Program-made: the position numbers and the translations under genes
The notes under the pieces: model-generated
Databases searched by the model: none
Seen by the model: the letters and a program-made list of their open reading frames with translations, nothing else
What the model was told of the DNA's origin: nothing
Source of the DNA: an uncultured Gemmiger sp.
Lineage (GTDB): Bacteria; Bacillota; Clostridia; Oscillospirales; Ruminococcaceae
Assembly (NCBI GenBank): GCA_944388245.1
Contig: CALXIA010000023.1
Location: 1-34,457, forward strand
Length of the DNA: 34,457 nt
Direction: 5' to 3'
Shown: piece by piece, positions 7,326 to 24,744 of the stretch
Numbering within the stretch: position 1 is the first letter of the stretch
Layout of the letters: each line of letters opens with the position of its first letter

Positions 7326-8561
<1,236 letters not shown>

Positions 8562-8585
8562 ACGGACCAAAGGAGGATGCTGCCC

Positions 8586-9923
8586 ATGGCAGACGCATAC
8601 GAGACCCGCCTGTGGGGCGGCCGCTTTCACGAGGACGAGGACGCGCTGATGCAGCGGTTCAACGGCAACGCCTGCGAGACGCTGTGGCTCATGGAGCCGG
8701 ACATTGAGGGGAGTCTGGCTCACGTGGCCATGCAGGTGCGCTGCGGCCTGCTCACCGAGGAGGAGGGCAAGACCCTGACCGACGGGCTGGAGAGCATCCT
8801 GGCCGACTGGCGCAGCGGGGCGATCACCTGCGGCCCGGAGTACGAGGACGTACATACCTTTGTGGAACTGAACCTGATCCGCCGTGTGGGGGAGGTGGGA
8901 AAAAAACTGCACGCCGCCCGCAGCCGCAACGACCAGGTCAACACCGACATGAAACTGTACGTCAAGGCACAGCTGCAGCGGGTGGCCGGTCTGATCGACA
9001 GCTTTACCGAAACCTTGCAACAGGTGGCGGAGAAGAACCCCTGGCCCATGCCCGGCTACACCCATCTCCAGCGGGCCCAGGTGGTCACCTTCAAATACTA
9101 CATGCTGGCCTACGCCGAGATGATGGGCCGGGACAAACAGCGGGTGCTCAACGCGCTGGATCTGCTGGACGAGAGCCCGCTGGGCTGCGGCGCGCTGGCC
9201 GGCACCACCCACAACATCGACCGAGCCTTCACCGCTGAGAAGCTGGGCTTCTCCCACGGCCCTTGCAAGAATTTTCTCGATGGGGTGTCCGACCGGGACT
9301 ATGTGCTGGAATCTTTGAGCGCGTTTTCCATCCTGATGATGCACCTGTCCCGCCTGTCGGAGGAGCTGGTGCTCTGGTCCAGCGCCGAGTTCGGGTTCAT
9401 CACCCTGGACGACAAGTACACCACCGGTTCCAGCATCATGCCCCAGAAGAAGAACGCAGACGGAGCGGAACTGGTGCGCGGCCAGACCGGCCGGGTCTAC
9501 GGGCACCTGATGGCGCTGCTCTGCACCATGAAGGGGCTGCCGCTGGCCTACAACAAGGATATGCAGGAGGATAAACTGGCCTTCTACGACAGCCTGAATG
9601 TGGTCACTGCCTGCCTGCAGGTCACCGAGCGGATGATCGCCACCCTGACCCCGCACCCGGACGTGATGCGGGCGGCCATCAAGAAGGGGTTCATCAACGC
9701 CACCGAGGCCGCCGATTACCTGGTGCGCAAGGGGATGCCTTTCCGGGACGCCCACAGCGTGGTGGGGCAGCTGGTACTCTACTGTGAGCAGCAGGGCAAA
9801 GCGCTGGAAGAACTGACGCTGGAGGAGTTGAAAGCAGTCAGCCCGGTCTTTGAAGCGGACGTGTACCCGGAACTGACCTGCGACGCCATCCTGCATCGGG
9901 GCATCAAGCAGGAGATGTTGTAA
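8586..9923 (+). CDS. argH: Argininosuccinate lyase
   Basis: Splits argininosuccinate into arginine and fumarate, completing arginine synthesis. The start is set at ATG 8586, nine bases after AGGAGG; the ATG at 8577 touches the ribosome site. The product of 445 residues begins MADAYETRLWGGRF and has the fumarase/aspartase-superfamily blocks: SRNDQV near residue 115, GYTHLQRAQ near 155, and the signature GSSIMPQKKN near 285. In the signature the usual Pro after KKN is Ala (KKNADGAEL). It lies 24 bp after argG and shares its promoter; a strong hairpin follows. Confidence 0.97.
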   Translation: MADAYETRLWGGRFHEDEDALMQRFNGNACETLWLMEPDIEGSLAHVAMQVRCGLLTEEEGKTLTDGLESILADWRSGAITCGPEYEDVHTFVELNLIRRVGEVGKKLHAARSRNDQVNTDMKLYVKAQLQRVAGLIDSFTETLQQVAEKNPWPMPGYTHLQRAQVVTFKYYMLAYAEMMGRDKQRVLNALDLLDESPLGCGALAGTTHNIDRAFTAEKLGFSHGPCKNFLDGVSDRDYVLESLSAFSILMMHLSRLSEELVLWSSAEFGFITLDDKYTTGSSIMPQKKNADGAELVRGQTGRVYGHLMALLCTMKGLPLAYNKDMQEDKLAFYDSLNVVTACLQVTERMIATLTPHPDVMRAAIKKGFINATEAADYLVRKGMPFRDAHSVVGQLVLYCEQQGKALEELTLEELKAVSPVFEADVYPELTCDAILHRGIKQEML

Positions 9924-12316: not shown

Positions 12317-14049
12317 TACAAACCCGCTCCTTCCTGCTGCGAATGGTAGATCTCCTGATAGATGCGGTTATGCTCCAGCAGGGTCCAGTGGTTGCCCACC
12401 TCGTTGATCCGGCCATTGTCCAGGATCACGATCTGGTCCGCGTCCAGCACCGAGGTAATGCGCTGGGCAATGATGATCTTGGTGGTGTGGGGCAGGCAGT
12501 GGGCCAGCCCCTGGCGGATTTTGGCTTCGGTGACCATATCCACCGCGCTGGTGGAATCGTCCAGGATCAGCACCTTGGGCTTTTTCAGGATGGCCCGGGC
12601 GATGCACAGCCGCTGTTTCTGGCCGCCGCTCACGTTCACACCGCCCTGCCCCAGGTCGGTGTCATAGCCGTTTTCCAGCCGGCCGATGAACTCATCCACG
12701 CAGGCGATATGGCAGGCCTCCTCGATTTCGGTGTCGGTGGCGTCCGGCTTGCCCCAGCGCAGGTTTTCCCGCACCGTGCCGCTGAACAGGGTGTTCTTCT
12801 GCAGCACCATGGCGATGGCGTCCCGCAGATGGACCAGGGGATACTCCCGCACCGGCCGTCCATCCACCCGCACAACGCCCTCGGTGGCGTCGTACAGCCG
12901 GGGGATCAGCTGCACCAGGGTGGATTTGGCCGATCCGGTGCCGCCGATGATGCCCACGGTGGAGCCCGCCGGAATTTTCAGGTTGATGTCCCGCAGCACA
13001 TACTCCGCCGCGCCGGCCTTGTATTGGAAGGATACGTGGTCAAACTCGATCTCGCCCCGCTCCACCGTCACGTCCTTCGCGTCCTCCTCGGTGATATCCA
13101 GCGGCTCGTCGATCACTTCAAAGATGCGCTGCCCGCTGGCGATGGCCCGGGTCAGCAGCAGGAACACGTTGGAGAACATCATCAGGCTGTTGAGTACCTG
13201 CAGCACATAGCTGAGAAAGCCGGTCAGCTTGCCCACCTTCATGGCGCCCCCGATGATCATACCGCCGCCGATCCACAGGATGGCCAGAATGGTGCTGTAC
13301 ATCACCAGCTGCATGGCGGGCATGTTGAGCACCGCGATCCGCATCGCCTGGCGGGACACCCGGCACAGGTTGTCGTTCACCTGCCCGAATTTCTCAATTT
13401 CGTATTCTCCCCGCACATAGGCTTTCACGATCCGCACGGCGGTCAGGTTCTCCTGCACGATCCGGTTCACCAGGTCGATGGCCCGCTGCATCCGGCTGTA
13501 GAGCGGCCGCACCCGGCGGATGATCTGAAACAGCAGAAAGCCCAGGGTGGGCGCCGCCACCAGGAACACCAGTGCCAGCCGGGCGTTGATGAGAAAGGAC
13601 ATGGTCAGCGCCGTGATCATCATGATCGGGCTGCGCACCGCCGGGCGCAGCCCGTTGATCACCGCGTTCTGGATGGTGGTCACGTCGCTGGTCAGCCTTG
13701 TCACCAGCGATTCGGTCTGGAACCGGTCCCGGTTGGCAAAGGAAAAACTCTGGATCTTGGCGTACTCCGCCTTGCGCACCTCCGCCGCCAGACCATGGCC
13801 GCACAAGGCGGAAAACCGGGCGCTGCCCACCCCCAGCAGCAGGGCGGCCAGGGCGCACACGCACATCAGCGCCCCCTGCTGAAAAATGTAAGGCCGGTTC
13901 CCGGTGGCCACCCCCACGTCCACGATGTTCACCATGATCATGGGGATCACCAGTTCAAAGACCGCCTCGGCCGCCACGCAGAACATGGCCAGCACAAACC
14001 ATAGCCGGTATTTGTGCAGATACCCGGCAAAGCGGCGGATCAGATGCAT
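12316..14049 (-). CDS. ABC exporter half-transporter, subunit 1 (degenerate site)
   Basis: A 577-residue ABC exporter with six predicted membrane helices followed by an ATPase domain. Its nucleotide site is altered: Walker A reads GGTGSAKST (Ala for the usual Gly before Lys), the residue after Walker B is Asp not Glu (VLILDDST), and the switch His is Gln (IIAQRITSV), while the signature VSGGQ is intact. Together with LSQGQ in the partner this is the standard asymmetric arrangement of heterodimeric exporters, where one ATP site is degenerate. It is the first gene of the ABC-ABC-marR operon; ATG 14049 follows AAGGAG. Expression is probably controlled by the MarR protein at the adjacent palindrome. 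Confidence 0.93.
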   Translation of the reverse strand: MHLIRRFAGYLHKYRLWFVLAMFCVAAEAVFELVIPMIMVNIVDVGVATGNRPYIFQQGALMCVCALAALLLGVGSARFSALCGHGLAAEVRKAEYAKIQSFSFANRDRFQTESLVTRLTSDVTTIQNAVINGLRPAVRSPIMMITALTMSFLINARLALVFLVAAPTLGFLLFQIIRRVRPLYSRMQRAIDLVNRIVQENLTAVRIVKAYVRGEYEIEKFGQVNDNLCRVSRQAMRIAVLNMPAMQLVMYSTILAILWIGGGMIIGGAMKVGKLTGFLSYVLQVLNSLMMFSNVFLLLTRAIASGQRIFEVIDEPLDITEEDAKDVTVERGEIEFDHVSFQYKAGAAEYVLRDINLKIPAGSTVGIIGGTGSAKSTLVQLIPRLYDATEGVVRVDGRPVREYPLVHLRDAIAMVLQKNTLFSGTVRENLRWGKPDATDTEIEEACHIACVDEFIGRLENGYDTDLGQGGVNVSGGQKQRLCIARAILKKPKVLILDDSTSAVDMVTEAKIRQGLAHCLPHTTKIIIAQRITSVLDADQIVILDNGRINEVGNHWTLLEHNRIYQEIYHSQQEGAGL

Positions 14050-14076
14050 ACCGAATCACTCCTTTGCAACAACAAC

Positions 14077-14107
14077 ATTTGCATACGCAACTATTGTAGA
14101 TGCAAAT
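14077..14107. promoter_or_regulatory. Candidate MarR operator
   Basis: A perfect inverted repeat, ATTTGCAT then 15 bases then ATGCAAAT, spans the -10 element and transcription start of the exporter operon; a second related half, TTGC-4 bp-GCAA, overlaps one arm (14080-14091). The position suits a repressor encoded in the same operon. Confidence 0.55.
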
Positions 14108-14121
14108 CAATGGGTTGTCAA
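14093..14121 (-). promoter_or_regulatory. Promoter of the ABC exporter-marR operon
   Basis: On the minus strand TTGACA (14116-14121) and TACAAT (14093-14098) with a 17-bp spacer, 43 bp before the ATG of the first ABC gene. Confidence 0.8.
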
Positions 14122-14135
14122 CTGCGGGGCGGCAC

Positions 14136-14182
14136 AAAGCGCGGGAGCGCATCCGGAAAACCCGGACACGCTCCCGCGCTTT
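14136..14182. terminator. Hairpin downstream of carB-dapF
   Basis: A perfect 14-bp stem (AAAGCGCGGGAGCG and complement) with an inner CCGG/CCGG pairing, 12 bp past the carB-dapF stop. The T-run is stronger on the plus strand (six Ts) than on the minus strand (three Ts). It probably ends the arg-car transcript and insulates the exporter promoter. Confidence 0.7.
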
Positions 14183-14194
14183 TTTGCTGTGTAT

Positions 14195-17100
14195 TCAGAT
14201 CTCCACAACACCCTCGTAGACCAGCACCGCGTCGCCGGTGAGGGTCACCCCCTCGTCGGTGTAGCAGACAGTCACGTCGCCGCCCCGCAGTTTGACGGTG
14301 ATGGGCTCGCCCTTGGGGCAGTAGCCGTTCTCCACCGCCGCCACCACCGCAGCGCAGGCGCCGGTGCCGCAGGCAACCGTTTCCCCGTTGCCCCGCTCAA
14401 ACACCCGCATCTTCAGGGTGTGATCGTTCACCACCCGCACAAATTCGGTGTTTACCCGCTGGGGGAAGAGGGCCGCGTGCTCAAACTGGGGCCCCAGCTT
14501 TTCCAGATCCACCGCGTCCACCCGGGGGCAGAACACCACGCAATGGGGGTTGCCCATCGAAACGCAGGTGATCCGCCAGTCCTGGCCGGCAATGGTGGCC
14601 GGCACATCCACCGCCGGGTCGGCGGTCAGGGTGCAGGGCAGATCAGCGGGGTGCAGGCTTGCCCTGCCCATCTCCACCCGGGCGCTGCTCACCTTGCCGC
14701 CCCGCAGATAGAGATGCAGGTGCTTAATGCCGCTGGCGGTCTCCACCGTGATCTCCTCGCCGGTCACGTAGCCCCGGTCGTGGGCCAGTTTGGCCGCGCC
14801 CCGGATGCTGTTGCCGGCCATCCTGCCCTCGCTGCCGTCCTGGTTGAAGATGCGCATCCGGATATCCGCGACCTGCGAGCGCTCCAGAAGCACCACCCCA
14901 TCGCCGCCGATGCCGTAGTGCCGGTGGCACAGCCGCACCGCCAGGGATTCCGGGCAGGTGATGGCCCCGTCGAAGTTCTCGAAAAAGATGTAGTCGTCCC
15001 CGGTGCCCTGCAGCTTGGCAAAGGGCAGGGTCTGCCGGGTGGTGCGCATGTGGTTCAGGTCCACCAGCTCGGTGTTCTGCTGGGTGAACCGGCTGGCCAG
15101 GATGTCCGCCAGCGCGCTGGCGGTGTCCAGCGAGGTAAAGCAGGGGATGGACAGGGTCAGCGCGTGCCGGTGCAGGGTGATATAGTCGGCCAGCGATTCG
15201 TCCTCCGCCGCGCCGGTGTAGACGATGGCCCCGATCTTGCCCTCATCCAGCAGCCGCAAAATCTCACTGCTTTCCCGCAGGGGCGGCACCCGCCGTACAT
15301 CCACACCCAGAGCCTCCACCGCGTCGGCGGTGTCCGGGGTGGCGTAGAGACCGATGCCCAGGTCATCCAGCTTTTTGGCCACGGTAATGACCTCATACAG
15401 ATCGTGGCCGTCCACGCTCAGCAGTACCCCCGCGCCGCCTTCCAGCAGGGCGGGGCGCACGTCGATGCCCGCCGCGGCCAGCCCCTTGAACAGGGCCTCC
15501 CGCAGGTCCTTGCCGATGCCCAGCACCTCGCCGGTACTCTTCATCTCCGGCCCCAGGTAGGCGTTCACATCGTTGAGTTTTTCAAAGCTGAACACCGGCA
15601 CCTTCACCGCCACATAGGGCGGGGCGGGCCAGAGCCCGTCGCCGTAGCCCAGACTTTTCAGCGGGGCGCCGGTCATCACCCGGGCGGCCAGGTCCACCAT
15701 GGGCACCCCGGTCACCTTGCTGATGTAGGGCACCGTGCGGCTGGCCCGGGGATTCACCTCGATAACGTACAGCTCGTTCTTCCAAATCAGGTACTGGATG
15801 TTCACCAGCCCCTTGGTGCCCAGGGCCAGCGCCAGCTTGCGGGAGCAGTCCACCACCTGGTCCATCATCATGTCGCTCAGGTTGTAGGGGGGATACACGG
15901 CGATGGAGTCGCCGGAGTGCACCCCCGCCCGCTCAATGTGCTGCATCACGCCGGGGATCAGCACGTCGGTGCCGTCGCTGATCACGTCCACCTCCAGCTC
16001 GGTGCCGGGCATGTACTGGTCAATGAGTACCGGGTTCTCGATGCCGCCGGCCAGGATGCGCTGCATGTAGCGGCGCACCTCTTCGTCGCTGCGCACGATC
16101 CGCATGTTCTGCCCGCCGATCACATAGCTGGGCCGCAGCAAAACCGGGTACTCCAGCTGGCGGGCGGCGTTTAGCGCCTCCTCCAGCGTCAGGGCGCTCA
16201 GGCCACGGGGCCGCCGGATGCCGAACTTCTCCAGCAGCGCGTCAAACCGTTCCCGGTCCTCGGCGGTGTCGATGCCCTCGGCGCTGGTACCCAGAATGGG
16301 GATCCGCTTTTCGTCCAGATACCGGGTCAGCCGGATGGCGGTCTGGCCGCCAAAGGCCACCACCACCCCCACCGGCTTCTCCACCGCGATGATGTCCATC
16401 ACGTCCTCCGGGCAGAGGGGCTCAAAGTAGAGCCGGTCGCCGGTGTCGTAGTCGGTGGAAACGGTCTCCGGGTTGTTGTTTATGATCACCACATCGTAGC
16501 CCAGTTCTTTCAGGGTCCAGACACAGTGTACCGAGGAGTAGTCGAACTCGATGCCCTGTCCGATGCGGATGGGCCCGCTGCCCAGCACCAGCACGGTGGG
16601 GTGGCCGCTGCGGGCAAAACTGCGGGCCTCGCAGTGCACCCCCCAGCCGCTGTAGAAGTAGGGGGTGCGGGCGGCAAACTCGGCGGCGCAGGTGTCCACC
16701 ATCTTGTAGATGGCTGACAGGTGTTCCGGCAGCGGCCCGCCGCTGATCCGGGCCAGCGCTGCGTCCGGGTAGCCCAGTTCCTTGCCGGTCAGATATTCCT
16801 CCCGGGTCAGGGTCTTGCCCGTGATGTGCTGTTCGTAGTCCGCCAGGTGGGCCAGCCGATGCAGAAACCACCGGTCGATGCGGGTGATGGCGAAAATCTC
16901 GTCCACCGATACGCCGGCCTTGAGGGCTTCAAAGATGGTAAACAGCCGCTTATCGTCCATCCGGTGCAGCCGTTCGGTCACCGGGGCGTCGTCGGCGGGG
17001 GCGGCGTTCAGGGTATCCAGCCCGATCTCCGCGCCCCGCACCGCCTTCATCAGGGCCATCTCAAAACTGGGCCCGATGGCCATGACCTCACCGGTGGCCT

Positions 17101-18229
17101 TCATCTGGGTGCCCAGCTTGCGGCTGGCGCCGGCAAACTTGTCAAAGGGCCACTTGGGCATCTTGACCACCACGTAGTCCAGCGCCGGCTCAAAGCAGGC
17201 GCAGGTCTCGCCGGTCACGTCGTTGGGGATCTCGTCCAGGGTGTAGCCCAGGGCGATGCGGGTGGTAATCTTGGCAATGGGGTAGCCGGTGGCCTTGGAG
17301 GCCAGCGCCGAGGACCGGCTCACCCGGGGATTCACCTCGATGACCGCGTACTCAAAGCTGTCCGGATTCAAGGCAAACTGGCAGTTGCAGCCGCCCACGA
17401 TGCCCAGCGCGCTGATGATGTTCAGCGAGGCCGAGCGCAGCATCTGGTATTCCTTGTCCGAGAGGGTCAGCGCCGGGGCCACCACGATGGAGTCGCCGGT
17501 ATGCACCCCCACCGGGTCAAAGTTTTCCATGCTGCAGATGGTGATCACGTTGCCCGCCGCGTCCCGCATGGTCTCAAACTCGATCTCTTTCCAGCCGTAG
17601 ATGTACCGCTCCACCAGAATCTGGGTGATGGGGGAGGCATCCAGCCCGGTGTGGGCCACCGCCTGCAGTTCCTCCGGGGTATAAGCCACGCCGCCGCCGG
17701 TGCCGCCCAGGGTGTAGGCGGGCCGCACGATCACCGGGTAGCCGATCCGCTCGGCCACCGCCAGCGCCGCGTCCACCGTTTCGGCAATGTCGCTGGGGAT
17801 CACCGGTTCTCCGATGGCCGCCATGGTCTCCTTGAACTTTTCCCGGTCCTCGGCCTTTTCGATGGCCTCCACGTTGCTGCCGATCAGCCGCACGCCCCGG
17901 CTTTCCAGAAAGCCCTCCCGGCCCAGCTGCATGGCGATGGTCAGGCCGGTCTGGCCGCCCAGCCCCGCCAGCAGGCAGTCGGGCTTTTCCTTGTCGATGA
18001 TGCGCTTGACCGTCTCGGCGGTGAGGGGCTCCAGATAAATTTCGTCCGCCAGCGCCTTGTCGGTCATGATGGTGGCCGGGTTGGAGTTCACCAGCACCAC
18101 ATTCACGCCCGCCTCTTTCAAGACCCGGCAGGCCTGGGCCCCGGCGTAGTCAAACTCCGCCGCCTGCCCGATGACGATCGGGCCGGAGCCGATCATCAGC
18201 ACCTTGCGGATGCTTGTATCAAGTGGCAT
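14195..18229 (-). CDS. carB: Carbamoyl-phosphate synthase large subunit fused to a DapF-like domain
   Basis: One unbroken frame of 1344 residues; ordinary CarB is about 1070. Residues 1-1060 are complete CarB: two ATP-grasp halves (first from IRKVLMIGSGPIVIGQ, second from about 550 with VLVLGSGPIRIGQG) and the C-terminal MGS-like allosteric domain, ending ELVDLNHM. It makes carbamoyl phosphate with CarA for ArgF and pyrimidines. Residues 1061-1344 are a full-length diaminopimelate epimerase fold: LQGTGDDY, GIGGDGVV, MRIFNQDGSEG, SMGNPHCV, VNTEF, ERGNGET and ACGTGA. The second catalytic Cys (1287) is present, but the first is Ala1138 (MAGNSIRG instead of MCGNGIRC), and the substrate Asn of GNDF is Asp1078. 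The epimerase half may therefore be inactive or altered. ATG 18229 overlaps carA by 11 bp. An internal ATG at 15049 could start the DapF part alone but lacks a good ribosome site. Confidence 0.93.
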   Translation of the reverse strand: MPLDTSIRKVLMIGSGPIVIGQAAEFDYAGAQACRVLKEAGVNVVLVNSNPATIMTDKALADEIYLEPLTAETVKRIIDKEKPDCLLAGLGGQTGLTIAMQLGREGFLESRGVRLIGSNVEAIEKAEDREKFKETMAAIGEPVIPSDIAETVDAALAVAERIGYPVIVRPAYTLGGTGGGVAYTPEELQAVAHTGLDASPITQILVERYIYGWKEIEFETMRDAAGNVITICSMENFDPVGVHTGDSIVVAPALTLSDKEYQMLRSASLNIISALGIVGGCNCQFALNPDSFEYAVIEVNPRVSRSSALASKATGYPIAKITTRIALGYTLDEIPNDVTGETCACFEPALDYVVVKMPKWPFDKFAGASRKLGTQMKATGEVMAIGPSFEMALMKAVRGAEIGLDTLNAAPADDAPVTERLHRMDDKRLFTIFEALKAGVSVDEIFAITRIDRWFLHRLAHLADYEQHITGKTLTREEYLTGKELGYPDAALARISGGPLPEHLSAIYKMVDTCAAEFAARTPYFYSGWGVHCEARSFARSGHPTVLVLGSGPIRIGQGIEFDYSSVHCVWTLKELGYDVVIINNNPETVSTDYDTGDRLYFEPLCPEDVMDIIAVEKPVGVVVAFGGQTAIRLTRYLDEKRIPILGTSAEGIDTAEDRERFDALLEKFGIRRPRGLSALTLEEALNAARQLEYPVLLRPSYVIGGQNMRIVRSDEEVRRYMQRILAGGIENPVLIDQYMPGTELEVDVISDGTDVLIPGVMQHIERAGVHSGDSIAVYPPYNLSDMMMDQVVDCSRKLALALGTKGLVNIQYLIWKNELYVIEVNPRASRTVPYISKVTGVPMVDLAARVMTGAPLKSLGYGDGLWPAPPYVAVKVPVFSFEKLNDVNAYLGPEMKSTGEVLGIGKDLREALFKGLAAAGIDVRPALLEGGAGVLLSVDGHDLYEVITVAKKLDDLGIGLYATPDTADAVEALGVDVRRVPPLRESSEILRLLDEGKIGAIVYTGAAEDESLADYITLHRHALTLSIPCFTSLDTASALADILASRFTQQNTELVDLNHMRTTRQTLPFAKLQGTGDDYIFFENFDGAITCPESLAVRLCHRHYGIGGDGVVLLERSQVADIRMRIFNQDGSEGRMAGNSIRGAAKLAHDRGYVTGEEITVETASGIKHLHLYLRGGKVSSARVEMGRASLHPADLPCTLTADPAVDVPATIAGQDWRITCVSMGNPHCVVFCPRVDAVDLEKLGPQFEHAALFPQRVNTEFVRVVNDHTLKMRVFERGNGETVACGTGACAAVVAAVENGYCPKGEPITVKLRGGDVTVCYTDEGVTLTGDAVLVYEGVVEI

Positions 18230-19292
18230 CGTCGGCCCCTCCCTCCATCAGTCGGATAAACCGGTCAAACAAAAATCCGGTGTCCCGGGGCCCGGCACAG
18301 GCCTCCGGATGAAATTGCACGGTAAACGCCCGCTTGCCCGGGTAATCCAGCCCCTCGCAGGTGCCGTCGTTGGCGTTCACGAACCGGGGCCGCGCTCCCG
18401 GCACCGAGTCCGCCACCACCGCGTAGCCGTGGTTCTGGCTGGTGATGTAGGTGCGCCCGCCCAGCAGATCGCGGGCGGGCTGATTGGCCCCCCGGTGACC
18501 GTACTTCAGCTTGACGGTGCGCCCGCCTGCCGCCAGCGCCAGCAGCTGATGCCCCAGGCAGATGCCGAAGATGGGCAGCTTGCCCAGCAGCTTGGACAGC
18601 TCCGCGATGCAGCCGGTGTTCTCCGCCGGGTCGCCGGGTCCGTTGGAGAGCAGCAGCCCGTCCGCACCCAGGGCCAGCACCTGTTCGGCAGTGGTGTCCG
18701 CGGGCAGTACCGTCACCCGGCAGCCCCGCTTTTGCAGCTCCCGGGCGATGTTCGCCTTGACACCGTAGTCCAGCAGGGCCACATGGTGAGTTTCCTGCCC
18801 TTGGGCAGGCAGGGTATGGGGGGCGGCGCAGGTCACCGAAGCCACCGCGCCCTCCACCCGGTAGGCCGCCACCGCCGTCAGATCGGCGGGCGGGGCCGAG
18901 GTGATGATGGCGTTGGTCACCCCGTGCTCCCGGATGATGCGAGTGACCTCCCGGGTGTCGATGCCGCAGATGCCCGGCACGCCTTTTTCTTTTAGAAAAG
19001 CGTCCAGATCGTACTGGCAGCGGAAGTTGGAGGGGGTGGGGCACCAGTGCCGCACCACATAGCCCTTTACCCGGCACTCGCCCTCAAAATCCGCCTCGAT
19101 CACCCCGTAGTTGCCAATGAGGGGAAAGGTCTGCAATACGATCTGCCCCGCATAGCTGGGATCGGTCAGGGTCTCCAGATAGCCGCACATGTTGGTGGTG
19201 AACACCAGTTCGCCCACCGTGTCGCCCGCCGCGCCGAACCGCTGCCCCTCAAAGGCGGTGCCGTCCTGCAGCACGAGCCATGCCTTTTCCAT
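18219..19292 (-). CDS. carA: Carbamoyl-phosphate synthase small subunit
   Basis: The glutaminase subunit: it hydrolyses glutamine and passes ammonia to CarB. Start ATG 19292 is chosen because GAGGTG, which overlaps the argF stop, lies 7 bases upstream; the GTG at 19301 falls inside that site. The 357 residues comprise an N-terminal CPSase domain (AWLVLQDGTAFEGQRFG, FTTNMCGYLETLTDPSY) and a class I amidotransferase domain with nucleophile FGICLGHQ and the His-Glu pair in VQFHPEA. It is the sixth gene of the arg-car operon, with an 11-bp overlap into carB consistent with 1:1 coupled synthesis. Confidence 0.97.
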   Translation of the reverse strand: MEKAWLVLQDGTAFEGQRFGAAGDTVGELVFTTNMCGYLETLTDPSYAGQIVLQTFPLIGNYGVIEADFEGECRVKGYVVRHWCPTPSNFRCQYDLDAFLKEKGVPGICGIDTREVTRIIREHGVTNAIITSAPPADLTAVAAYRVEGAVASVTCAAPHTLPAQGQETHHVALLDYGVKANIARELQKRGCRVTVLPADTTAEQVLALGADGLLLSNGPGDPAENTGCIAELSKLLGKLPIFGICLGHQLLALAAGGRTVKLKYGHRGANQPARDLLGGRTYITSQNHGYAVVADSVPGARPRFVNANDGTCEGLDYPGKRAFTVQFHPEACAGPRDTGFLFDRFIRLMEGGADDAT

Positions 19293-19302
19293 TCCGGTCA
19301 CC

Positions 19303-20214
19303 TCACTGCGCGTTTCCCAGGCACTTCACCAGCACCGCCTTCTGGGCGTGCAGGCGGTTTTCCGCCTGTTCAAAGATCTCGTCCGCGTGCTGTTCAAACA
19401 CCTCGACGGTGATCTCTTCCTCCCGGTGGGCGGGCAGGCAGTGCAGCACCATGGCGTCGGGCTTTGCCACTGCCATGTTGGCGGCGTTCACCTGGTAGGC
19501 GGCGAACACCTTGCGGCGCTCCTCCGCCTCGTCCTCCTGGCCCATGGAGGCCCACACGTCGGTGTAGACCACGTCCGCGTTCTGCATGGCCTGCTGCACG
19601 TCGGGGGTGCAGAGGAACGCGCCGTTTCTGGCCGCCCACTGCATCAGGGCCGCGTCCGGCTTGTGTCCGTCCGGGCAGGCGATCGATACCTGCATCCCCA
19701 TGGTGATGCCGCCCACGATCAGGCTGTTGGCCATGTTGTTGCCGTCACCCACAAAGCAGAGCTTCTTGCCCGCCAGGGCGCCCTTGCGCTCCCGGATGGT
19801 CATCAGATCGGCCAGCACCTGGCAGGGATGACAGTAATCGGTAAGCCCGTTGATGATGGGGATGGAGCCGTATTTGGCCAGATCCTCCACCTCCTGCTGG
19901 GCAAAGGTGCGGATCATGATGCCGTCCAGATACCGGCTTAACACCCGGGCGGTGTCCTCCACCGGCTCGCCCCGGCCGATCTGCAGATCCCGGCTGCTCA
20001 AAAACAGCGCCGCGCCGCCCAGGTTGTACATGCCCACCTCGAAGGACACCCGGGTGCGGGTGGAGGACTTGGAGAAGATCATGCCCAAGGTCTTGCCCTT
20101 GAGCAGATGATGTTCCACCCCGTTTTTCTTTTCGTATTTCAGCTGGTCCGCAATGTTCAGGATCTCGTTGATCTCCGCGGCGGTCAGGTCCGCCAGTTTC
20201 AGCAGGTGTTTCAT
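19303..20214 (-). CDS. argF: Ornithine carbamoyltransferase
   Basis: Transfers the carbamoyl group to ornithine, giving citrulline. It is 303 residues. ATG 20214 overlaps the argD stop as ATGA, with GAGGAG 8 bases upstream; the GTG at 20223 is less likely. Visible motifs are the carbamoyl-phosphate loop SKSSTRTR, HPCQVLAD, and the ornithine loop HCLPAH. No residues suggest the catabolic type, and its place between argD and carA supports biosynthesis: its co-substrate is made by the next two genes. Confidence 0.97.
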   Translation of the reverse strand: MKHLLKLADLTAAEINEILNIADQLKYEKKNGVEHHLLKGKTLGMIFSKSSTRTRVSFEVGMYNLGGAALFLSSRDLQIGRGEPVEDTARVLSRYLDGIMIRTFAQQEVEDLAKYGSIPIINGLTDYCHPCQVLADLMTIRERKGALAGKKLCFVGDGNNMANSLIVGGITMGMQVSIACPDGHKPDAALMQWAARNGAFLCTPDVQQAMQNADVVYTDVWASMGQEDEAEERRKVFAAYQVNAANMAVAKPDAMVLHCLPAHREEEITVEVFEQHADEIFEQAENRLHAQKAVLVKCLGNAQ

Positions 20215-21377
20215 TGTGCGCACTCCTCTTTCAGAATTTGTACCGCCTGCGCCAGCAGGTCTTGGGGAATGTTCAGCGGCGGCAGCAGCCGCACCTTGTT
20301 TTTGGCCCGCAGGGGCAGCACCCCGCGCGCCTGGCAGGCCGCCAGCACCTCGCCCGCGTCCTTTTCGGTTTCAACACCCAGCATCAGCCCGGCGCCGGTC
20401 ACGCTTTTGACGCCCGGCGCGCCCTCCAGCTGGCTGCGTACCCAGTCGCCCTTGGCGGCCACTTCGGCCAGAAATGCCTCGTCCAGCCGTTCCAGAATGG
20501 TCAGCGCCCCGGCACAGCACACCGGGTTGCCCCCGAAGGTACTGCCGTGGCTGCCCGGCGTCAGCACCCCCGCGGCCTTGCCGCCCAGGATCGCCGCGCC
20601 CAGCGGCAAGCCGCCGCCCAGCCCCTTGGCGGTGGTCACCACATCCGGGTGCACGCCGCTGTGCATGTAGCTGAACAGCTTGCCGGTGCGGCCGTTGCCG
20701 GTCTGCACCTCGTCGGCCATGAGCAGCAGCCCCCGCTCGTGGGCCAGTTGTTCCAGCCCCTGGATAAAGGCAGGCTCCAGCGGGATGACCCCGCCCTCGC
20801 CCTGGATGGCCTCAAACAGAATGGCACAGCAGGGGTTTTCGTCCAGAACCCGTTCCACATCGGCCAGGTCATTCGGCTCGGCGTAGACAAAGCCCGGGGT
20901 CAGGGGCAGAAAATCCTTGTGGAACGTCTCCTGGCCGGTGGCGGCCAGGGTGGCCAGGGTACGGCCGTGGAAACTGCCTTTCAAGGTAACGATGGTGGTG
21001 CGGTCCGCGCCCAGGTGTTCAGCCCCGTATTTGCGGGCCACCTTGATGGCGCACTCGTTGGCCTCCGCGCCGGAGTTGCAGAAGAACACCTGCTGCATCC
21101 CGGTGCGCTCACAGAGCAGCGCTGCCAGCCGGGCGCAGGGCTCAGTGTAGTAAAGGTTCGAGGTATGCTGCAGTTTGGCCGCCTGTTCGCAGACCGCTTT
21201 CTGCCAAACCTCGTCGCAGGCGCCAAAGGCGTTCACCCCGATGCCGCTGCCCAGATCGATGTATTCCTTGCCGTCCTCGCCGATGAGCACCGACCCGTGC
21301 CCGCCGGTGAGTACCACCGGGAACCGGGCGTAGGTGGGGGCGATGTAGGTCTGATCCAGCTGTTTAATGTTGTCCAT
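20211..21377 (-). CDS. argD: Acetylornithine aminotransferase
   Basis: A PLP-dependent class III aminotransferase that converts N-acetylglutamate semialdehyde to N-acetylornithine with glutamate. ATG 21377 (MDNIKQLDQTYIAPTY) follows GGGAGG by 6 bases and lies inside the last codons of argB, a 14-bp overlap. The 388 residues show CNSGAEANECAIKVAR, FHGRTLATLAATG, the PLP Asp in LLMADEVQTGNGRTG, and the Schiff-base Lys in TTAKGLGGGLPLGA. Such enzymes can also act on succinyl-diaminopimelate, which is of note given the DapF-like domain at the end of the same operon. Confidence 0.97.
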   Translation of the reverse strand: MDNIKQLDQTYIAPTYARFPVVLTGGHGSVLIGEDGKEYIDLGSGIGVNAFGACDEVWQKAVCEQAAKLQHTSNLYYTEPCARLAALLCERTGMQQVFFCNSGAEANECAIKVARKYGAEHLGADRTTIVTLKGSFHGRTLATLAATGQETFHKDFLPLTPGFVYAEPNDLADVERVLDENPCCAILFEAIQGEGGVIPLEPAFIQGLEQLAHERGLLLMADEVQTGNGRTGKLFSYMHSGVHPDVVTTAKGLGGGLPLGAAILGGKAAGVLTPGSHGSTFGGNPVCCAGALTILERLDEAFLAEVAAKGDWVRSQLEGAPGVKSVTGAGLMLGVETEKDAGEVLAACQARGVLPLRAKNKVRLLPPLNIPQDLLAQAVQILKEECAQ

Positions 21378-22239
21378 AGCTGCCTCCCTGGATAAACATG
21401 GTGCCGATGCCCTCATCGGTGAGGGTCTCGATCAGGATGGCGTGGGGGATGCGCCCGTCGATGATGAACACCCGGTTCACGCCGCGGCGAATGGCCTCAA
21501 TGCAGCAGTCCACCTTGGGGATCATGCCGCCGGAGCTGATGCCCTCCCGCATGAGCTGGGGCGCTTCGCTTACCGTGATCTGGCTGATCAGGGTGGAGGG
21601 ATCGTCCTTGTCCCGCAGGATGCCGCTGGTGTCGGTCATGGAGATCAGGCTCTCGGCCTTGAGGGCGGCAGCGATGCGGGCCGCCGCGGTGTCCGCATTG
21701 ATGTTGTACACATTCCCCTCGGTGTCACAGCCCACCGTGGAGATCACCGGGGTGTATCCCTTTTCCAGTACATCCAGCACCGGCTCCACGTTGATCTGGG
21801 TGATCTCGCCCACATAGCCCAGTTCCGCCCGCAGGGGCTTTGCCTGGATCAGGTAGCCGTCCATGCCGCTCAGGCCGATGGCCTTGCCGCCCTTGCTCTG
21901 CAACAGGCTTACCAGATTTTTGTTGATCTTGCCGGCCAGCACCATCTGCACCAGTTCGGCGGTCTCCTTGTCGGTCACCCGCAGTCCGTCGATAAATTGG
22001 CTCTCCTTGCCCACCCGACGCATCAGATCGCTGATCTCGGGGCCGCCGCCGTGCACCAGTACTACCTTCACCCCAATCAGGCTCAGCAGCACCAGGTCTC
22101 CCATAACGGCCTGTTTCAGTTCCTCGTTGATCATGGCGTTGCCGCCGTATTTCACCACCAGAATTTTGCCGGTGTATTTCTGTATGTAGGGCAGGGCGTG
22201 GATCAGCACTTGCGCCCGCTGCGCGTTGCTCAGTTCCAT
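21364..22239 (-). CDS. argB: Acetylglutamate kinase
   Basis: Phosphorylates N-acetylglutamate. It is 291 residues with the glycine loops VVKYGGNAM and VLVHGGGPEI, plus GLSGMDGYLIQA. The N-terminal helix (SNAQRAQVLIHALPYIQKY) is the extension seen in hexameric, arginine-inhibited kinases, so feedback inhibition by arginine is likely; this fits an operon using ArgJ. ATG 22239 follows GAGGAGG. It starts 13 bp after argJ and its end overlaps argD. Confidence 0.97.
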   Translation of the reverse strand: MELSNAQRAQVLIHALPYIQKYTGKILVVKYGGNAMINEELKQAVMGDLVLLSLIGVKVVLVHGGGPEISDLMRRVGKESQFIDGLRVTDKETAELVQMVLAGKINKNLVSLLQSKGGKAIGLSGMDGYLIQAKPLRAELGYVGEITQINVEPVLDVLEKGYTPVISTVGCDTEGNVYNINADTAAARIAAALKAESLISMTDTSGILRDKDDPSTLISQITVSEAPQLMREGISSGGMIPKVDCCIEAIRRGVNRVFIIDGRIPHAILIETLTDEGIGTMFIQGGSYGQH

Positions 22240-22252
22240 CTGTACAGCCTCC

Positions 22253-23467
22253 TCAGGTGCGGTAGTCGCCGTTGATCTTTACATAGTCGTAGGTCAGATC
22301 GCAGCCCCAGGCGGTGCTTTCCGCTGTGCCGGCGTGAAGATCCACCTGGATCTCGATCTCGCTTTTGAGCAGGATCTCCTTGGCCTGTTCCTCGGAGAAG
22401 GGAATGCCCGCCCCGTCCTTGCACACCGCAATGCGGCCCGCCTCGCTGGCGAAGGCCACGTCTACCTTTTCCACGTCCACCGCCGCGCCGCTGTAGCCAA
22501 TGGCGCAGAGCACCCGGCCCCAGTTGGCGTCCGCGCCGAACATGGCCGCCTTGACCAGGGAAGAGCAGATCACCGCTTTGGCCACGGTGCGGGCGGTGGC
22601 CAAAGCGGCGGCGCCCTGCACACGGCATTCCAGCAGCCGGGTGGCGCCCTCGCCGTCGCCGGCCAGCATCCGGCACAGCTGCATGGTCACGGTGTTCAGC
22701 GCCTGCATAAAGAGGGCAAAATCCTGGTTTTCTTCGGTCACGGGGGTGTTGCGCGCCAGGCCGTTGGCCAGGATGGTCACCATATCGTTGGTGGAGGTGT
22801 CCCCATCCACGCTGACCATGTTGAAGGTGCTCTGCACGTCGGTGGACAGCGCCTTGTGCAGCATCTCGCTGCTGATGGCCGCGTCGGTGGTCAGGAATAC
22901 CAGCATAGTGGCCATGTTGGGGTGGATCATGCCGCTGCCCTTGGCGATGCCGCCCAGATGGCAGGTCTTGCCGTCCAGAGTGAACTCCACCGCCACCTCC
23001 TTGGCGACGGTGTCGGTGGTCATGATGGCTTGGGCGGCGTGCAGGCTGTTGTCGTAGCCAAGATCCGCCACCAGCGGGGCCATACCCGCCTTGATGGGGG
23101 TCAGATCCAGCGGCTGCCCGATCACGCCGGTGGAGGCGATCACCACATCCTCCGCGGCAATGCCCAGCGGTTCGGCGGCCAGTTGACACATGGTTTGGGC
23201 GACCTGCGGCCCGTCCGCGTTGCAGGTGTTGGCGTTGCCGCTGTTGCACAGGATGGCCTGGGCTTTGCCGTCGGCCAGATGGGCCTTGGTCACCAGCAGC
23301 GGCGCGCCCTTCACCAGGTTGGTGGTGTAGACCGCCGCGGCGCTGGCGGGACAGTCGCTGACGATCAGCGCCAGATCCCGCTTGGACTGATTTTTCCGGA
23401 TGCCGCAGTGGATGCCCGCGGCCTTGAACCCCTGCGCGGCGCAAACGCCGCCTGTGATCTGTTTCAT
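22253..23467 (-). CDS. argJ: Glutamate N-acetyltransferase / ornithine acetyltransferase
   Basis: Recycles the acetyl group from N-acetylornithine to glutamate, so the pathway needs no ArgE; many homologues also use acetyl-CoA. It is 404 residues, made as a precursor that self-cleaves before the Thr of MIHPNMATML into alpha and beta chains, a motif that is intact. Other family blocks are LCNSGNANTCN, ASTGVIGQPL and MFGADANWGRVLCAIGYSG. ATG 23467 follows GAGGAG; 58 bp separate it from argC. Confidence 0.96.
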   Translation of the reverse strand: MKQITGGVCAAQGFKAAGIHCGIRKNQSKRDLALIVSDCPASAAAVYTTNLVKGAPLLVTKAHLADGKAQAILCNSGNANTCNADGPQVAQTMCQLAAEPLGIAAEDVVIASTGVIGQPLDLTPIKAGMAPLVADLGYDNSLHAAQAIMTTDTVAKEVAVEFTLDGKTCHLGGIAKGSGMIHPNMATMLVFLTTDAAISSEMLHKALSTDVQSTFNMVSVDGDTSTNDMVTILANGLARNTPVTEENQDFALFMQALNTVTMQLCRMLAGDGEGATRLLECRVQGAAALATARTVAKAVICSSLVKAAMFGADANWGRVLCAIGYSGAAVDVEKVDVAFASEAGRIAVCKDGAGIPFSEEQAKEILLKSEIEIQVDLHAGTAESTAWGCDLTYDYVKINGDYRT

Positions 23468-23525: not shown

Positions 23526-24455
23526 TTATTCCAACCGAAGCCCGGTCTCGGGCGGCAGGCCCAGCACCAGGTTCATGCACTCCACCGCCGCGCCGCTGGC
23601 CCCTTTGCCCAGGTTGTCGTAACGGGCCATCAGCAGGATACGCTCCTCGTTGCCGCCCACCGAGATCTCCATCCGGTCCAAGCCGCTCAGCGCGGCGGCG
23701 GAGAAGAACCCTTCCTCGCCGGTTTCGGGCTGCCACCGGACCACCGGCCCGGTATAGAGGGAGGCGTACAACTGCCGCACATCCTCCGGCGTGCCCTTCA
23801 GCTGGCTGCGGAACAGGGGAACGGTCACCGCCATACCGCTGTAAAAATCCGCCACGATGGGGCAGAAGACGGGGGCGTTCACCAGTCCAATCACCGCTTG
23901 CATCTCGGGAAGATGCTTGTGGGTTTGGCTCAATCCATACTGACGGGGCGCGTTCAGCAACCCGCTTCGCTCCGGGGCTTCATACTGGGCGATCATGGAT
24001 TTCCCACCGCCGCTGTAGCCCGTCAGGGAAAAGCTGGTCACGGGATAATCCGCCGGAAGGATTCCTTCTCTCACCAACGGTTGTACCAGCGCGATAAAAC
24101 CGCTGGCGTGGCAACCGGGAACGGCAATCCGCTTGCCGGTCTGGATGGCGTTGGCGTAGGCGGGCCCCAATTCGGGCAAACCGTAGGCCCAACCGGGAGA
24201 AGTGCGGTGCGCGGTGGATGCGTCCAGGATCACCGCGCTGGTTCCCTCCGCCAGCGCTACCGCCTCCCGGGCAGCCGCGTCCGGCAGACAGAGAAACGCG
24301 ATGTCGCAGGCGTGCAGTGCCTCCCGACGGGCTTGCGGATCCTTGCGGGTTTCTTCTGGCAGAGTGAGCAGGGTAAGGTCCTTGCGCAGCGCCAGTCTTT
24401 GGTGAATCTGCAGGCCGGTAGTGCCGGCGCTGCCGTCAATAAAAATCGTGTGCAT
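23526..24455 (-). CDS. argC: N-acetyl-gamma-glutamyl-phosphate reductase (short type)
   Basis: Reduces N-acetylglutamyl phosphate with NADPH to the semialdehyde. The start MHTIFIDGSAGTTGL at ATG 24455, after AGGGGG, is the normal beginning of the short ArgC class; a 93-codon upstream extension of the frame runs through the promoter and is rejected. The 309 residues include the nucleotide loop DGSAGTTG, a catalytic Cys in VPGCHASGF, and SLTGYSGGGKSM. It is the first gene of the arg-car operon and carries an ARG box in its promoter. Confidence 0.95.
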   Translation of the reverse strand: MHTIFIDGSAGTTGLQIHQRLALRKDLTLLTLPEETRKDPQARREALHACDIAFLCLPDAAAREAVALAEGTSAVILDASTAHRTSPGWAYGLPELGPAYANAIQTGKRIAVPGCHASGFIALVQPLVREGILPADYPVTSFSLTGYSGGGKSMIAQYEAPERSGLLNAPRQYGLSQTHKHLPEMQAVIGLVNAPVFCPIVADFYSGMAVTVPLFRSQLKGTPEDVRQLYASLYTGPVVRWQPETGEEGFFSAAALSGLDRMEISVGGNEERILLMARYDNLGKGASGAAVECMNLVLGLPPETGLRLE

Positions 24456-24508
24456 AGTGAAAATCCCCCTGCAATACGGGCAAACCAGACGGCTTGCCGA
24501 CTGGATAT

Positions 24509-24537
24509 ATTTTACATCATGATGCATAAATATGCAA
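24509..24537 (-). promoter_or_regulatory. Promoter of argCJBDF-carAB
   Basis: On the minus strand TTGCAT (24532-24537) and TAAAAT (24509-24514) with a 17-bp spacer, 53 bp before argC. The hexamers are weaker than those of argG. Confidence 0.65.
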
Positions 24538-24539
24538 TA
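24521..24539. promoter_or_regulatory. ARG box (ArgR/AhrC operator) at the argC promoter
   Basis: GATGCATAAATATGCAATA, centred on the near-palindrome TGCATAAATATGCA, covers the -35 hexamer of the argC promoter. It matches the Bacillus-type ARG consensus at most positions and is the second such box in the window, both at arginine promoters. Confidence 0.7.
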
Positions 24540-24631
24540 GTTTTTAGTTTGAAATATTCTCTTTCCCAGGATTTTGCGGAATACATACAGAATGGCGGGG
24601 GAAAAGATCGGTGGATTGGACATTTTCACAG

Positions 24632-24668
24632 TTGCAAAAGAGTGAATAAATACACGGTGCTTTTGCAA
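24632..24668. repeat. Perfect 9-bp inverted repeat upstream of tRNA-Asp
   Basis: TTGCAAAAG (24632-24640) and CTTTTGCAA (24660-24668) flank a 19-base AT-rich centre. It lies between the divergent argC and tRNA-Asp promoters. No T-run follows, so it is not an obvious terminator; function unknown. Confidence 0.6.
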
Positions 24669-24715
24669 GGGGAAAAACGGGATGAAAAATATGGCAAATT
24701 TTTTTGAAAAAGGTG

Positions 24716-24744
24716 TTGACTTTTGCGTTGCCATCCCGTATAAT
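24716..24744 (+). promoter_or_regulatory. Promoter of tRNA-Asp-Thr
   Basis: TTGACT (24716-24721) and TATAAT (24739-24744) with a 17-bp spacer, 33 bp before tRNA-Asp. Confidence 0.85.

Follow-up and report, generated by a model that had tools for sequence, protein, structure and literature searches.

The diaminopimelate (DAP) epimerase of Haemophilus influenzae, DapF (EC 5.1.1.7), holds its substrate with Asn11, Asn64, Gly74, Asn75, Asn157, Asn190, Glu208, Arg209, Gly218 and Ser219, and the signature of the family is quoted as N-x-[DN]-[GS]-[SENGFT]-x4-C-[GI]-N-[GA]-x-R, in those parts of PMC8225329 that were available. The same excerpts describe 2,4-diaminobutyrate racemase PddB, a relative of DapF whose substrate has no distal carboxylate. 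Escherichia coli DapF deprived of catalytic activity remains able to bind RppH and activate it (PMC4227774), and dead dihydroorotases are retained in complexes of the carbamoyl phosphate pathway, where, in the available sections of PMC7053772 and PMC6245113, one is described as necessary for activity. Here we describe a carB-dapF gene of an uncultured Gemmiger sp. (order Oscillospirales; contig CALXIA010000023.1, positions 1 to 34,457, the whole 34,457-nt stretch of DNA analysed being called the window), in which CarB, the large subunit of carbamoyl phosphate synthetase (CPSase), runs on into a DapF domain lacking the first of two catalytic cysteines, Cys73. We see an even chance that this domain is a pseudo-epimerase serving CarB, retained in an arginine CPSase as a module for DAP binding or for assembly.

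Architecture of the fused gene

The gene lies at 14195–18229 on the minus strand and encodes 1344 aa in a stop-free frame. Its CarB part (residues 1–1060; 15050–18229) matched TIGR01369 over residues 4–1042 with 1378 bits (cut-off 1027), and further matches to PF02786, PF25596, PF02787 and PF02142 covered both ATP-grasp halves and the MGS-like allosteric domain, the latter placed at residues 947–1032 (15134–15391) by PF02142 and by alignment to the E. coli CPSase. The immediate neighbour of the MGS domain is the DapF domain (residues 1061–1344; 14198–15049), a member of the DapF fold family by its TIGR00652 match over residues 1070–1342 (247.1 bits, curated cut-off 114.65). The CarB part terminates in NTELVDLNH, which aligns with the natural C-terminus, VELVDISRL-stop, of an unfused CarB in the same host. 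An initial annotation, made from the letters alone, had proposed an in-frame fusion of carB with a 284-residue DapF-like domain, and the uninterrupted frame and both family scores bear this out. The gene is taken to yield a single protein, the large subunit of what is very probably an arginine-specific CPSase, with a DapF domain directly after its MGS domain.

An assembly or frameshift artefact was considered and ruled out, as the fusion recurs in other genomes of the genus, including the named isolate record of Gemmiger sp. An120, and the same junction is found order-wide. Antisense to the fused gene there is a 756-aa open frame (13904–16174, plus strand), which is probably a base-composition artefact.

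At the position of Cys73 the domain has Ala1138 (GCC, 14816–14818), and the other catalytic cysteine, Cys217, is kept as Cys1287 (TGC, 14369–14371). Asn11, a contact of the reactive alpha-amino group in the contact map of PMC8225329 (as far as its available text goes), is replaced by Asp1078 (GAC, 14996–14998). These three residues had been called in the initial annotation, and each codon was confirmed exactly. Its statement that most other substrate residues remain also holds: by alignment, the distal carboxylate contacts Asn64, Asn157 and Asn190 are present as Asn1129 (14843–14845), Asn1227 (14549–14551) and Asn1260 (14450–14452), and Glu208-Arg209, which contact the distal amine and carboxylate, as Glu1278-Arg1279 (14393–14398), all on the minus strand. 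The domain nevertheless fails the DapF signature, with Ala1138 at the cysteine and Ser at the [GA] place. The threonine-for-cysteine exchange of the trans-3-hydroxyproline dehydratase type is not seen in the window, nor in any of the 97 Cys-less domains of the comparison set described below. The initial annotation had cautioned that an active DapF subfamily carrying Ala at the Cys73 position might already be known; none was met in the material found.

Two kinds of fused domain across the order

The fusion was present in 4/4 searched genomes of the window's genus, the three others at 95–96% domain identity, and, in an even sample of the order, in 125 genomes out of 396, with the junction of the window recurring; the initial annotation had proposed just such a search among relatives. 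A DapF match was obtained in 300 of the 396 genomes, and the DapF places were read in all 300; two of the 96 genomes without a match (G115 and G017) were looked at further. The junction is near-uniform, with a CarB end of NTELVDIN or similar, then usually MR, then the DapF domain. Among the best 80 of 557 loci in named records, obtained with a query that included the linker and so over-represents fusions, 79 had more than 100 residues of upstream frame and the remaining one was cut by a contig end; two loci at first labelled standalone (L053 and L067) proved to be fused proteins cut by contig ends. The fusion occurs across the order and is taken to be old.

The comparison set comprised 133 fused domains, namely 125 from the survey and eight further relatives; the count includes G378. 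The fused relatives G041 and G016 stand outside this table, and G084, G107, G260 and G379 were dropped from it because the residues preceding their DapF domain are not CarB. In one such case (G107:C9, L202), the DapF domain lies towards the N-terminal end of a 794-residue frame and is not joined to CarB.

Cys73 is absent from 97 of the 133 fused domains, where it is replaced by Ala (74), Gly (12), Ser (6), Phe (3), Pro (1) or Tyr (1), and kept in the other 36. Cys217 is present in 34/34 scored Cys73-keeping domains, the other two (G079 and G145) being incomplete, and in 91 of 96 scored Cys-less domains. With the exception of Asn11, the DAP-contact residues are 95–99% retained in the Cys-less set (Thr standing in place of Ser219), compared with a mean majority fraction of 0.69. 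Asn11 is changed in 30 of the 97 Cys-less domains, 26 times to Asp, versus none of the 36 that keep Cys73. Given this retention and the contrast with PddB drawn below, the pocket still looks built for a DAP-like ligand, with catalysis apparently broken.

A quick tree, in which many forks are weak, was built from 202 domains: 129 of 132 fused rows (three of fewer than 240 residues omitted, G378 not included), two truncated fused rows, and standalone DapF rows, of which 71/71 keep Cys73. It groups the fused domains on one branch (Shimodaira–Hasegawa-like approximate likelihood ratio test, SH-aLRT, 84), with two standalone rows nested within. One large Cys-less clade holds 79 rows, the two truncated ones included (SH-aLRT 96). 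Further losses of Cys73 are scattered among two-Cys lineages, and the best tree requires at least nine changes among the fused rows.

Some lineages have departed further. In G188 (L246) both catalytic cysteines of the fused domain are replaced (IGGN, ASGTG), and G041 (L318) shows the opposite loss, keeping Cys73 with Cys217 replaced by Ser and Asn75 by Gly. G016 has a Cys-less fused domain with one TAG within the frame, and in G145 part of the fused domain is lost. In G068, G135 and G333 (L210, L209 and L248), of genus g80, Cys73, Cys217, Glu208-Arg209, Asn157 and Asn190 are all lost, with the frame full.

Arginine context of the fused synthetase

The fused carB is the last gene of an arginine operon, argC-argJ-argB-argD-argF-carA-carB, on the minus strand. 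Its glutaminase partner carA (18219–19301; PRK12838.1, 432.8 bits) adjoins it, followed on the upstream side by argF (19303–20223; TIGR00658), argD (20211–21416; TIGR00707), argB (21364–22239; TIGR00761), argJ (22253–23467; TIGR00120) and an argC of the argC_other type (23526–24734; TIGR01851, the match starting at residue 96 of the longest frame). On the opposite strand, at 7326–9923, are argG (7326–8561; PF00764 and PF20979) and argH (8577–9923; PF00206 and PF14698). The fused CarB is predicted to make carbamoyl phosphate. A second CarB of the host, 1068 aa long and without a DapF domain, clusters with carA, pyrE, pyrD, the dihydroorotate dehydrogenase electron-transfer subunit, pyrF and pyrC. 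Because of this separate carAB in a pyrimidine operon and the arginine operon around the fused gene, the fused enzyme is very probably an arginine-specific CPSase. The link that the initial annotation had raised, between arginine/pyrimidine supply and cell-wall lysine synthesis, would thus be to arginine and not to pyrimidines.

The best 80 of the 557 named-record loci, whose upstream flank never exceeded 5 kb and was often less, included 62 with carA and 21 with argF; five pyrimidine genes used as queries gave no match. The arginine context holds for the window and part of its relatives, not for all. In L045, L047, L071 and L103, argF stands directly before the fused carB and carA was not found within the locus.

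In a by-eye reading of the alignment, Lys954, Lys993, Asn1015 and Thr1017 of E. coli CarB correspond to Leu, Pro, Tyr and Gly in the MGS domain of the fused protein, which keeps the equivalents of Thr974, Thr977 and Thr1042. We take Lys954, Thr974, Asn1015 and Thr1017 to be further residues of the uridine monophosphate (UMP) site of E. coli CarB. Lys993 and Thr977 are named as UMP-site residues in the available part of PMC6245113, from which the roles of Ser948 and Thr1042 are likewise taken. The pattern would fit a CPSase released from pyrimidine control.

Elsewhere in the window, at 728–2083 on the plus strand, there is an AAA ATPase that matches PF13304 (AAA_21, 'putative AbiEii toxin').

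Other routes to meso-DAP

The host genome (75% complete, 64 contigs) is close to Gemmiger sp. An120 (L033), with 95% identity in the DapF domain. It holds a second, standalone DapF with both cysteines (MCGN, ACGTG; 209 bits, 32% identity to the fused domain), as the initial annotation had suggested looking for, and a meso-DAP dehydrogenase, Ddh (447 bits). The standalone DapF (L002, 1486–2349), which departs from the GNPH and VNTEF motifs and has a long branch in the tree, is a putative DAP epimerase.

A spare meso-DAP route, counted as a family match to standalone DapF or to Ddh, was found in 92 of the 97 Cys-less genomes versus 23 of the 36 that keep Cys73, and in 18/18 Cys-less rows outside the main clade. 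In this count G378 enters by standalone DapF alone, the standalone copy of G188 is included despite a TAG in the match, those of G002 and G003 come from a protein search and carry no TIGR00652 score, and weak second DapF-like places below the cut-off in G033, G161, G235 and G337 lie outside it. Thirteen of the 36 Cys73-keeping genomes have no spare route, including G145 with its incomplete domain, and in the other 12 an intact two-Cys fused domain is the sole detected route. In its two-Cys form the fused domain probably works as a DAP epimerase. The counts fit the notion that Cys73 was dispensable only in genomes that did not need this domain for epimerisation. The correlation, striking in the raw counts, is not significant under phylogenetic control and was dropped as a proof.

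A pyridoxal phosphate (PLP)-type DAP epimerase, DapF2, which is proposed in the available portion of PMC9026213 and lies outside the scope of this count, could explain the Cys-less genomes in which no spare route was detected. Two near-complete genomes of genus g15, in the window's family (G115 and G017), have neither DapF nor Ddh over threshold.

In G179, G259, G331 and G156 (L217/L276, L225/L164, L226/L153 and L203/L142), a two-Cys fusion and a standalone two-Cys dapF lie on the same contig, 0.1–3 kb apart. Such a tandem arrangement may be a route by which the fused copy is freed to lose Cys73. In G236, a sister of these genomes, Cys73 is lost.

Proposed role and alternatives

On the reading that we put forward, the first catalytic cysteine was lost in the window's lineage with the pocket kept, leaving a pseudo-epimerase that most likely binds a DAP isomer without turnover. 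Closure of the two lobes on the ligand, or the mere presence of the domain in the assembly, would then tune or stabilise CarB, and arginine synthesis would thereby be tied to the DAP/lysine pool. The fusion itself, the changed residues, the kept pocket, the purifying selection and the host's further meso-DAP routes were observed; loss of epimerase activity, binding of DAP and an effect on CarB are what we infer here. Of the four options in the initial annotation, a sensor or regulatory domain is the best fit; the option of another substrate is narrowed, since the kept distal-carboxylate residues make a ligand without a distal carboxylate unlikely. In its most specific form, the domain would be a sensor of a cell-wall precursor: in an order-wide fusion, loss of one cysteine would have made the epimerase a DAP-binding allosteric domain of the arginine CPSase, with DAP control replacing a lost UMP control, which we consider somewhat less likely than not. 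Retention of the pocket favours ligand binding. In contrast, persistence of the domain in genus g80 despite loss of much of the pocket favours a scaffold there, on which CarB depends for folding, assembly or stability and which needs no ligand; g80 keeps it in frame at a ratio of nonsynonymous to synonymous substitution rates (dN/dS) of 0.137–0.158. The inactive dihydroorotase of Pseudomonas aeruginosa aspartate transcarbamoylase (ATCase), in the available part of PMC7053772, is a precedent. As a general account a pure scaffold is possible but rather unlikely, as the near-complete pocket of other Cys-less genomes is not required of a mere scaffold.

Several observations weigh against a pseudo-epimerase kept for CarB, and the remaining alternatives draw on some of them. 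In five Cys-less genomes no other meso-DAP route was detected, three of them with LysA over the cut-off; G041, which has lost Cys217, is also without a detected spare route; and a phylogeny-controlled independent-pairs test of Cys loss against spare route had four usable pairs and gave no support. The five genomes speak for a domain that still epimerises, some other residue standing in for Cys73. A cysteine six residues on (MxGNxxRC), present in 85 of the 97 Cys-less domains, might serve; however, it is also present in 36/36 Cys73-keeping domains, the window and the rest of its genus have Gly there, the E. coli DapF double Cys-to-Ala mutant does not epimerise (PMC4227774), and single Cys mutants of PddB keep less than 0.1% activity according to the available text of PMC8225329. 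We regard an active epimerase as quite improbable. It is somewhat less improbable, though still doubtful, that the domain is a one-base enzyme in which Cys217 alone deprotonates a DAP-like substrate for exchange, elimination or one-way chemistry. Cys217 is indeed widely kept, but the residue replacing Cys73 is mostly Ala or Gly, incapable of an acid/base role, the window has Asp at Asn11, and we know of no candidate substrate with a leaving group. Precedents do exist in the available part of PMC8142540, where exchange of Cys for Thr among relatives of proline racemase converts an epimerase to a dehydratase, and glutamate racemase mutants with a single Cys carry out elimination on chloro-substrates.

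Finally, the domain could be the decaying remnant of a once bifunctional enzyme, the catalytic residue being gone while other meso-DAP routes exist. Further losses in some lineages (g80, both cysteines in G188, part of the domain in G145, the TAG in G016) point this way, as do raised dN/dS values: 0.186–0.587 in g160 pairs with G410 and 0.28–0.29 in two G062 pairs of g37. In the window's genus, however, dN/dS is 0.048–0.071 for the DapF domain versus 0.041–0.065 for the CarB sequence next to it, so that both are under the same strong purifying selection. Most values from other groups lie below 0.26 (g65 pairs 0.037–0.255), pairs with saturated dS yielding no ratio, and g80 remains low although much of its pocket is lost. 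Because the ratio in the genus is as low as that of CarB, and the full frame and pocket are retained across a large clade, decay is unlikely there and was set aside for the genus; overall it is the alternative to which we give the least credence.

Comparison with known systems

If the pseudo-epimerase reading is true, arginine synthesis would be coupled to the DAP/lysine/peptidoglycan pathway directly, through one protein, in an order to which many gut bacteria belong. The fusion would then also offer a natural progression from a bifunctional enzyme to a pseudoenzyme, in which forms that have the catalytic cysteine can be set against forms that lack it. For annotation, a Cys-less CarB fusion as the sole 'dapF' should not earn a genome credit for DAP epimerase. 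We found no paper on a CarB-DapF fusion among open-licence PubMed Central papers, and automatic database annotation may well exist; a plasmid-collection record inspected for such annotation had none. Each of the two domains belongs to a known family, and CPSase complexes that contain a dead enzyme domain are already known.

The domain resembles DapF in fold, in a family score over the cut-off, in the distal-carboxylate residues and in Cys217. It differs in being fused to CarB, in the changes of Cys73 to Ala and Asn11 to Asp, and in being predicted not to epimerise. PddB is likewise a repurposed relative of DapF, but there, in the available text of PMC8225329, both cysteines are kept and the distal-carboxylate residues lost, the reverse of the window. 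In human trans-3-hydroxyproline dehydratase the cysteine has become Thr, whereas here it is mostly Ala or Gly. E. coli DapF with RppH shows that a protein of this fold need not epimerise in order to regulate another enzyme, although that is a separate two-Cys enzyme with an RNA pyrophosphohydrolase as partner, and here the domain is covalently joined to a CPSase and naturally Cys-less. Similar to the CPSase/ATCase complexes of URA2 and of P. aeruginosa with its inactive dihydroorotase (pDHO), a metabolic enzyme that appears to be dead is retained within an enzyme of the carbamoyl phosphate pathway; in the window, however, it is a DAP epimerase on an arginine CPSase, and the dependence of the partner on it is proposed by analogy.
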